Source of the DNA: Porticoccaceae bacterium
Lineage (GTDB): Bacteria > Pseudomonadota > Gammaproteobacteria > Pseudomonadales > Porticoccaceae
NCBI GenBank assembly: GCA_029212965.1
Contig: JARGOV010000015.1
Coordinates: 1-37,433, forward strand
Length of the DNA: 37,433 bases
Reading direction: 5' to 3'
The notes under the pieces were generated by a model. The model searched no databases. It saw nothing but the letters and a program-made list of their open reading frames with translations, and was not told the DNA's origin. Shown here in pieces: positions 11,509 to 13,037 of this stretch. A program made the translations under genes and the position numbers. Position 1 is the stretch's first letter, and the number at the start of each line of letters is the position of its first letter.

Positions 11509-12393
11509 TTAAGATTTAGGGGCAAAAGCTTGCAGAGCAAGAGGATCGTAGCCGGGTTCTCCATCGGGACGTAAAGCCTGAATACAGACATGGTCGGCAC
11601 CATTTTGCCAGTGGGCTTCAAGGCGTTTTAAAATTGTCGCTTCGTCACCCCAAGCGACAATGGCATCGACCAATCTGTCGCTGCCGCCGTGCTCAAAATC
11701 ATCGGTGCTAAAACCTAGTGTTAACAAGTTGTTACGATAATTATCAAGGCTCAGGTACATTTCCATAAACTTCCGCGCGATGGAACGGGCTTCGCCAGGG
11801 TCTTTTACGAGTAATACTTTTTGTTCAGGGGCGAGAAATTTATTGGGGCCGATAATATCTCGGGCGCGAGCGGTGTGTTCGGGGGTAACAAAGTAGGGGT
11901 GGGCACCATCGCTGGCACTGCCTGCCAGGCCGAGCATTTTTTCTCGTAGTGCCGCTAGCACTATCATTCCCTGTTTTGCCGGTGGTGGCGCGGTGTACAT
12001 GGCAGCGTTCAAGGCGTCAAGATAGGCGCGCATGGTGCTGACAGGCTTGCCGTAGTCGTGGCTACGAATAGCGCTAACTAACTCTCGGTGAGAGACGCCG
12101 AGGCCGAGAATCAAACGCCCGCCACTAAGTTCGTCAATGGCATTGCGCGCCGATGCCATTGCCATGGGGTCGCGGGCGTAGACATTAGCGATACCCGTGG
12201 CGAGGTAGAGCTTTTCGGTTTCGCCAGCCAGCAGGGTGATGGTGACAAATGGGTCCCGACCAAAGGCCTCGGGTACCCATAGCGTTGAATAGCCTAATTG
12301 TTCGACAGTTTGTGCGAGTTCGATGCATTGTTTGTAGTTGCAGGCATCGAGGAAGCCCCAGACGCCGAGTTTGCCTATATCAGATGCTTTCAT
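11509..12393 (-). CDS. Luciferase-like (LLM) oxidoreductase, TIGR03620-type, predicted F420-dependent
   Basis: This encodes 294 residues of the flavin/F420 luciferase-like barrel. The opening KLGVWGFLDACNYKQ, the RDPFVTITLLAGET stretch, IANVYARDPMAMA and GGRLILGLGVSH are typical of the TIGR03620 family, which is predicted to use coenzyme F420. ATG 12393 (MKAS) is preferred to a GTG at 12429, since the added residues are basic and atypical; neither has a strong ribosome site. A Ddn-like gene is divergent from it. FMN use is possible, and the substrate is unknown. Confidence 0.8.
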   Translation of the reverse strand: MKASDIGKLGVWGFLDACNYKQCIELAQTVEQLGYSTLWVPEAFGRDPFVTITLLAGETEKLYLATGIANVYARDPMAMASARNAIDELSGGRLILGLGVSHRELVSAIRSHDYGKPVSTMRAYLDALNAAMYTAPPPAKQGMIVLAALREKMLGLAGSASDGAHPYFVTPEHTARARDIIGPNKFLAPEQKVLLVKDPGEARSIARKFMEMYLSLDNYRNNLLTLGFSTDDFEHGGSDRLVDAIVAWGDEATILKRLEAHWQNGADHVCIQALRPDGEPGYDPLALQAFAPKS

Positions 12394-12578
12394 GGTTAGA
12401 TGGTTTCTCTGTGATTTTTTATTTGGCACCCAGTCTACCCTTTGCCAATTGTCGATTTCAACGGCTCAGAGTTTTGCTGTGCAGACAATGAAAGACAGAA
12501 AAGGGGTATTGACTTTCGTGTGACGCACTGGAGTAGACTAAGTAAACGACAACCACCACTACTCTCGAGACTATCGTA

Positions 12579-13037
12579 ATGATAAATATAAAGACCGCCA
12601 GCTCTGAGCAAATGGGCAAACTGCTACCTTATCTTAAAGTCTTCTCTTCATTGAACGAGAAGGTTTATCGCCTGACTAATGGGCGTATTCTCGGCAAATT
12701 GAATGGCTATGACGTTTGTCTGGTGACCATGACTGGCGCAAAATCAGGTAAGCAGAGAGTGATTCCCCTGATGTACGTACCCTATAAAGATGGGGTGATT
12801 ATAGTTGCATCGCAGGGTGGTGCGCCGAAAAACCCGGTTTGGTTTAATAACCTTGTTGCAAACCCCGATATTGAAGTGCAGTACAAAGCTAAGAAAATGA
12901 AATTACGGGCGCGTCGCGTTGATGCCGAAGAAAAGGCTACGGTATGGCCTGTTTGTTGTGAGTACTACCCCGATTACGATATTTATCAGAAACGAACCGG
13001 GCGCGATATTCCGGTGTTTGTTTGCGAACCGCGTTAG
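12579..13037 (+). CDS. Ddn-like deazaflavin-dependent nitroreductase-family protein
   Basis: This encodes 152 residues. The sequence LVTMTGAKSGKQR, VIPLMYVPY, VASQGGAPKNPVWFNNL and ANPDIEVQY follows the Ddn/Rv3547 split-barrel family, which binds F420 in mycobacteria. The GAKSG/R and NP-W motifs surround the phosphate-binding region. It faces the luciferase-like gene across about 185 bp, so both may respond to one control region. Use of F420 in this organism is a prediction; some family members bind other ligands. Confidence 0.85.
   Translation: MINIKTASSEQMGKLLPYLKVFSSLNEKVYRLTNGRILGKLNGYDVCLVTMTGAKSGKQRVIPLMYVPYKDGVIIVASQGGAPKNPVWFNNLVANPDIEVQYKAKKMKLRARRVDAEEKATVWPVCCEYYPDYDIYQKRTGRDIPVFVCEPR

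Follow-up and report, generated by a model that had tools for sequence, protein, structure and literature searches.

Three groups of described proteins and producers lie closest to the locus reported here. Ddn of Mycobacterium tuberculosis (FDOR-A1) is an F420H2-dependent menaquinone and nitroimidazole reductase, for which the roles of the residues S78, Y130, Y133 and Y136 have been reported (PMC3267046). In the luciferase-like class, the nearest references are Mer, the archaeal F420-dependent methylene-H4MPT reductase, and the TIGR03620 family (type MSMEG_4141), for which we found no characterised reaction, MSMEG_4141 being absent from the literature matches listed. With respect to the cofactor itself, a 2021 review (PMC8498797) gives alpha- and betaproteobacteria as confirmed F420 producers, with fbiC, cofC, cofD, cofE and, as F420 reductant, Fno in common; the FDOR enzymes it covers are those of Actinobacteria and Chloroflexi, and it poses the question why Proteobacteria make F420. 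The string 'gammaproteobacteri' has zero occurrences in the main text of that review. F420 and Porticoccaceae are each mentioned once in PMC11847657, and we make no claim that F420 in gammaproteobacteria is unpublished.

The window (the whole stretch of DNA that was analysed, 37,433 nucleotides from a Porticoccaceae bacterium) was annotated in an earlier note as containing a TIGR03620-type luciferase-like oxidoreductase that faces a Ddn-like protein across one control region. Both open reading frames are present and both family assignments were borne out. The luciferase-like protein (LLM/LLHT, predicted to be F420-dependent; 11509-12393, or to 12429 with a GTG start, reverse strand) scored 291 bits against the TIGR03620 profile (E 8.7e-87), which exceeds the subfamily cut-off of 219.8 but in a gammaproteobacterium, and 109.2 bits against PF00296. 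The Ddn-type protein (FDOR-A, PF04075/TIGR00026; 12579-13037, forward strand, 152 aa), a predicted F420H2-dependent quinone or enone reductase, scored 135.1 bits against PF04075 (E 2e-39, cut-off 22) and 108.1 bits against TIGR00026 (cut-off 46.35). The LLM reading frame (11509-12429) spans 306 aa when counted from the GTG; the ATG at 12393 is the likelier start, because the TIGR03620 match begins only at residue 18, because a TGA in the related genome G393 precedes the residue that matches this ATG and because the LLM of G400 aligns only from residue 10-12. Contrary to this choice, the alignment with the LLMs of G406 and L193 begins at residue 1. Counted from ATG 12393 to ATG 12579, a single region of 185 bp lies between the two divergent genes.

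The Ddn-like protein and Ddn of M. tuberculosis aligned without gaps over residues 39-151 and share the active-site residues. At the 17 contact and active-site positions named by Cellitti et al. (PMC3267046) 11 residues were identical (K55, R60, P63, S78, W88, N91, Y130, Y133, Y136, R142 and I144), which includes all four active-site residues S78, Y130, Y133 and Y136 at the same numbers, and six were changed (R54 to A, T56 to S, Y65 to M, A76 to V, K79 to Q and M87 to V). The contacts of Ddn with the F420 tail and phosphate are thus kept at R60, W88 and N91 and replaced at R54, T56 and K79. M59 and Q73 stand at the places of Y65 and K79 in nfa33440, a homologue from Nocardia that has been crystallised together with F420 (PMC3267046), so that two of the six differences are found in a proven F420 protein as well. 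The exchange K79Q in M. tuberculosis Ddn abolishes pretomanid activation (PMC7032734), and therefore nitroimidazole reduction should not be assumed for the protein in the window. Its structure model was poor (mean pLDDT 57.9, 11 sequences).

The structure model of the LLM was confident (mean pLDDT 94.5, pTM 0.92, 40 sequences). Every one of the top 15 rows of its VIA-align comparison (Z 30.4 to 25.1) was an enzyme that depends on F420, of the Mer, Adf or Fgd type; Mer headed them (1f07; 23% identity over 279 aligned residues, rmsd 2.6 A, Z 30.4) and was also ranked first by Foldseek. The LLM is not a Mer itself, because it scored only 56.9 bits against the Mer equivalog TIGR03555 (cut-off 348.7). 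The common fold does not prove the cofactor: the FMN-dependent bacterial luciferase followed right behind the F420 rows (Z 24.8 after 25.1), the F420 enzyme KvPepI (Z 22.2) stood below many FMN enzymes, and in the Foldseek list F420 and other rows were mixed from rank 14. Among the best 80 LLM loci listed, the closest (90-92% identity) came from gammaproteobacterial assemblies, including 50_400_T64, and the next-closest from assemblies of which several are titled Porticoccaceae. One LLM locus titled Klebsiella pneumoniae (L252) is a metagenome assembly that matches genome G008 of the window's order, and the title looks wrong.

Two options had been left by the earlier note, namely that the organism makes F420 or that both proteins have been adapted to another cofactor, and the former is backed by the genome to which the window belongs (G000; 2.76 Mb, 64 contigs, 94.1% complete; the window lies on contig C36). 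The search for cofC, cofD, cofE, cofG/H and fbiC recovered all of them, so the organism is not one devoid of F420 genes. They lie together on contig C38, in the order: an LLM gene in the same direction as the genes that follow (L013:2109-3188), npdG/fno (L013:3303-3989; 196.2 bits, cut-off 149.8), cofE (L013:4049-4945; TIGR01916, 250 bits, cut-off 180.65), cofD (L013:5086-6057; TIGR01819, 305.7 bits, cut-off 257.45), cofC (L013:6126-6899; TIGR03552, 143.6 bits, cut-off 105) and fbiC, a fused cofG-cofH (L013:6896-9274; bifunctional CofGH, 1130.5 bits, cut-off 1018), the halves of which scored 491.8 for cofG (TIGR03550, cut-off 213.35) and 578.8 for cofH (TIGR03551, cut-off 374.1). All five cof functions thus exceeded their TIGRFAM cut-offs. 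For CofD the TIGR01819 score is the one to be used, because the broad CofD family also matched the E. coli control; CofE, whose sequence is partly masked, stayed below two longer models (NF009809, 239.1 against 274; NF009810, 186.5 against 304). Reading frames that we read as bioB, bioF and bioD directly follow the cluster in the same direction (L013:9415-12368).

The presence of npdG, cofE, cofD, cofC and fbiC in one genome makes it most likely that this Porticoccaceae-type gammaproteobacterium produces F420 and reduces it with NADPH. Production of 3PG-F420 was considered and rejected: a Ser/Thr at the CofC position corresponding to S162 of Mycetohabitans, a 3PG-F420 producer, is diagnostic for that variant (PMC8764529), whereas the CofC encoded here has a Gly, within an F-G-E-N-S stretch that aligned with F-S-G-P-S of 7p97 and F-G-P-D-S of 6bwg. 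Ordinary F420 made via 2-phospholactate or PEP is therefore to be expected. Because CofE is single-domain and CofC looks to be of the 2-phospholactate/PEP type, the reduction of dehydro-F420 may call for an enzyme of its own; a nitroreductase for this step was not recognised among the reading frames of the 20 kb of C38. The window genome as a whole holds three Ddn-type matches (contig C36, C47:15482-15838 and C4:117554-117955) and, from an unchecked first look, 18 LLM candidates, and these numbers suggest a wider use of F420.

We then compared the occurrence of the two families with that of F420 synthesis genes in an even sample of 390 genomes of the window's order (thresholds: cofH, E ≤ 1e-80; Ddn relative, E ≤ 1e-10; LLM relative, E ≤ 1e-30). 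A cofH gene was found in 101 genomes (100 over the cut-off) and in 44 of 143 genera, a Ddn relative in 76 genomes and an LLM relative in 31, all of which fall within the 76. The genomes with a Ddn relative carried cofH in 66 of 76 cases versus 35 of 314 without one (Fisher p 9e-38), and those with an LLM relative in 24 of 31 versus 77 of 359 (p 5e-10); since the sampled genomes are related, these p values overstate independence and the results should be read as associations. That the ten Ddn-positive genomes without cofH use F420 without making it was considered and set aside, because eight of them carry cofD over the cut-off (G088 only with its neighbours in the frame), so that most are probably assembly gaps. 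Either marker was present in 74 of the 76 Ddn-positive and 29 of the 31 LLM-positive genomes, totals that stand without a matched background, as the cofD search covered only these ten. Both markers went unseen in G200 (97% complete) and G286 (78%), which are positive for Ddn and LLM. In a sample of 41 genomes of the family, cofH occurred in 14, a Ddn relative in 18 and an LLM relative in 13, and cofH, the only marker counted here, accompanied 13 of the 18 Ddn genomes and 10 of the 13 LLM genomes.

At the genomic level, both families are linked to F420 most directly by a cluster in a single assembly, that of the alphaproteobacterium JOPF012 (L263:1211-8873), where a Ddn-type gene, fbiC, two LLM genes and cofE-cofD-cofC stand together. 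A TIGR03620 protein (317.8 bits, 55% identical to the LLM in the window) follows cofE-cofD-cofC, and a TIGR00026 protein (112 bits), fbiC and the second LLM lie within the same 8 kb. For the LLM, the co-occurrence, the fold ranking and this cluster favour F420 over FMN.

Taken together, the two proteins are very probably F420 enzymes whose host produces the cofactor itself. Judged from gene content, FbiC (CofG+CofH) would make FO, CofC, CofD and CofE would build F420 via the 2-phospholactate/PEP route and add glutamates, and NpdG (Fno) would reduce F420 with NADPH, after which F420H2 would be used by the pair. The Ddn-type split-barrel protein would use F420H2 as hydride donor for a quinone or some other conjugated acceptor, and the TIM-barrel LLM would carry out hydride exchange of F420 with an organic substrate, without oxygen chemistry. 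The LLM gene comes first in a series of genes that share its direction, the others coding for a metallo-beta-lactamase-fold hydrolase, NudC, an enoyl-CoA hydratase and a short-chain dehydrogenase; such a series suggests the breakdown of acyl-CoA-type or carbonyl compounds.

From the shared location the earlier note had suggested that the two genes serve one pathway, a suggestion that the conserved divergent order supports in part. The pair was found at the same place in five genomes of the window's genus (G000, G393, G400, G406 and L193, NORP45), and in all five sampled genomes of the sister genus g146 (G392, G399, G405, G411 and G416). A first reading that the pair is private to the window genome, made when the order sample listed no congener, was ruled out by these family-level searches; ten genomes from two genera have the divergent arrangement, and none was seen beyond them. 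A rival explanation opposes the single pathway and leaves the F420 cofactor untouched: the two genes may be F420 enzymes of unrelated pathways that are merely adjacent, their order being inherited synteny and not co-regulation, to which we give an even chance. It is favoured by the surroundings, since the genes between ech and mtnP, these two included, were collinear in the three same-genus genomes compared (the short-chain dehydrogenase gene in two of the three), and in the sister genus the pair is likewise accompanied by gloB-like, nudC and ech, which are co-conserved without an evident role in F420 metabolism. In four of the five sister-genus genomes a ThiF-rhodanese gene (~390 aa) lies between the LLM and Ddn genes (L195:2819-3967, L197:2740-3873, L203:6579-7763 and L208:5656-6810); it is missing between the pair in the window's genus and in L198. 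Elsewhere in the family the two genes were on separate contigs in G396, G409 and G414, and G403 had the Ddn gene only.

Outside the family the association was rarer: none of 29 LLM loci had a Ddn gene beside it within flanks of up to 1.5 kb. Among the best 80 LLM loci listed, with flanks of up to 8 kb, a Ddn match was present in 10 and missing in 70; nine of the 10 came from the two genera and the remaining one was L263, i.e. one of 68 non-family loci, with the match 6.5 kb off and inside the F420 cluster. In the family loci among these 80, a gloB-like gene was near the LLM in 12 of 12 and a Ddn gene in 9 of 12. The linkage is thus real but shallow and non-exclusive. Beyond the family no pathway could be read from recurrent LLM neighbours, as the neighbour clusters were mixed with antisense reading frames and blocks from kin genomes; the weak matches to ech and short-chain dehydrogenases found close to remote relatives of the LLM belong to very common families and, with no control, were not counted as evidence. 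Inherited synteny is argued against by the sister genus, where the divergent pair is kept in all five genomes although none of them has nagZ on the same contig, and where in G411 no LLM or Ddn gene was found in the 11 kb read upstream of nagZ. The same-genus genome G412 jointly misses cofH, the LLM and a close Ddn; nagZ was not found there either, so the region of the pair may be absent from that assembly. The two proteins may share a pathway.

The intergenic region (12394-12578) also speaks against mere adjacency, in that it holds two mirrored GTAGACT heptamers, one on the LLM side (12432-12438, reverse strand, 38 bp from the start codon) and one on the Ddn side (12533-12539, forward strand, 39 bp from the start codon). 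The heptamer occurs three times in the whole window, and two of the three are these. In all five genus genomes GTAGAC was kept on both sides, at 30-39 bp from the LLM start and 36-39 bp from the Ddn start, and a block of ~50 bp was conserved on the LLM side. The sites face outward, an arrangement that was noticed post hoc, and may represent two -10 boxes or two operator sites. A promoter-like pair for the LLM (-35 TTGAAA, -10 TAGACT; 12461-12432, reverse strand) came from a consensus scan of 1.9 kb that found two sites with 2.1 expected by chance and hence is no evidence alone. In the sister genus the hexamers AGTCTA/TAGACT were absent from four of the five regions (that of L208 being partly masked), and L198 has the LLM-side one.

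A closer functional coupling, which we consider unlikely, would have the pair act as an F420 electron shuttle. The LLM would then work as a dehydrogenase and load F420 with hydride taken from a substrate that the neighbouring acyl-CoA-type genes catabolise, and the Ddn-type protein would unload the electrons of F420H2 into the quinone pool. Among bacteria such a respiratory role of F420 has been shown for the mycobacterial Ddn; if the shuttle were real, aerobic marine gammaproteobacteria would use F420 to carry electrons in respiration.

That both proteins have switched to FMN or another flavin despite F420 production is very unlikely in our estimation. FMN members do exist in the LLM superfamily and in the nitroreductase-type classes, some F420 reductases can bind FMN (PMC6279831), and five Ddn genomes (G399, G403, G412, G414 and G416) and three LLM genomes of the family gave no cofH match; these points are countered by the tracking of F420 synthesis genes by relatives of both proteins in the order, by the retained active-site residues of Ddn and by the presence of relatives of both in the L263 cluster. 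A recent transfer of the pair and the F420 genes from actinobacteria would fit the patchiness of F420 synthesis in order and family but is highly improbable, as none of the best 80 LLM loci listed has an actinobacterial title, in a search whose patterns came from an alignment of the window's order and with Ddn relatives sought within order and family only.

Ordinary F420 enzymes are then the best reading of the pair, in a bacterial group for which F420 has been little described. Both proteins belong to known families, and the interest lies in a simple, testable pair and in the breadth of F420 genes across the order; how common these and Ddn-type genes are in a gammaproteobacterial order was less expected. 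The genes are also carried by a named strain, Litorivivens lipolytica CECT 8654 (L206, G095), in which cofH was found along with four Ddn relatives and an LLM relative, and the question is therefore open to bench work.
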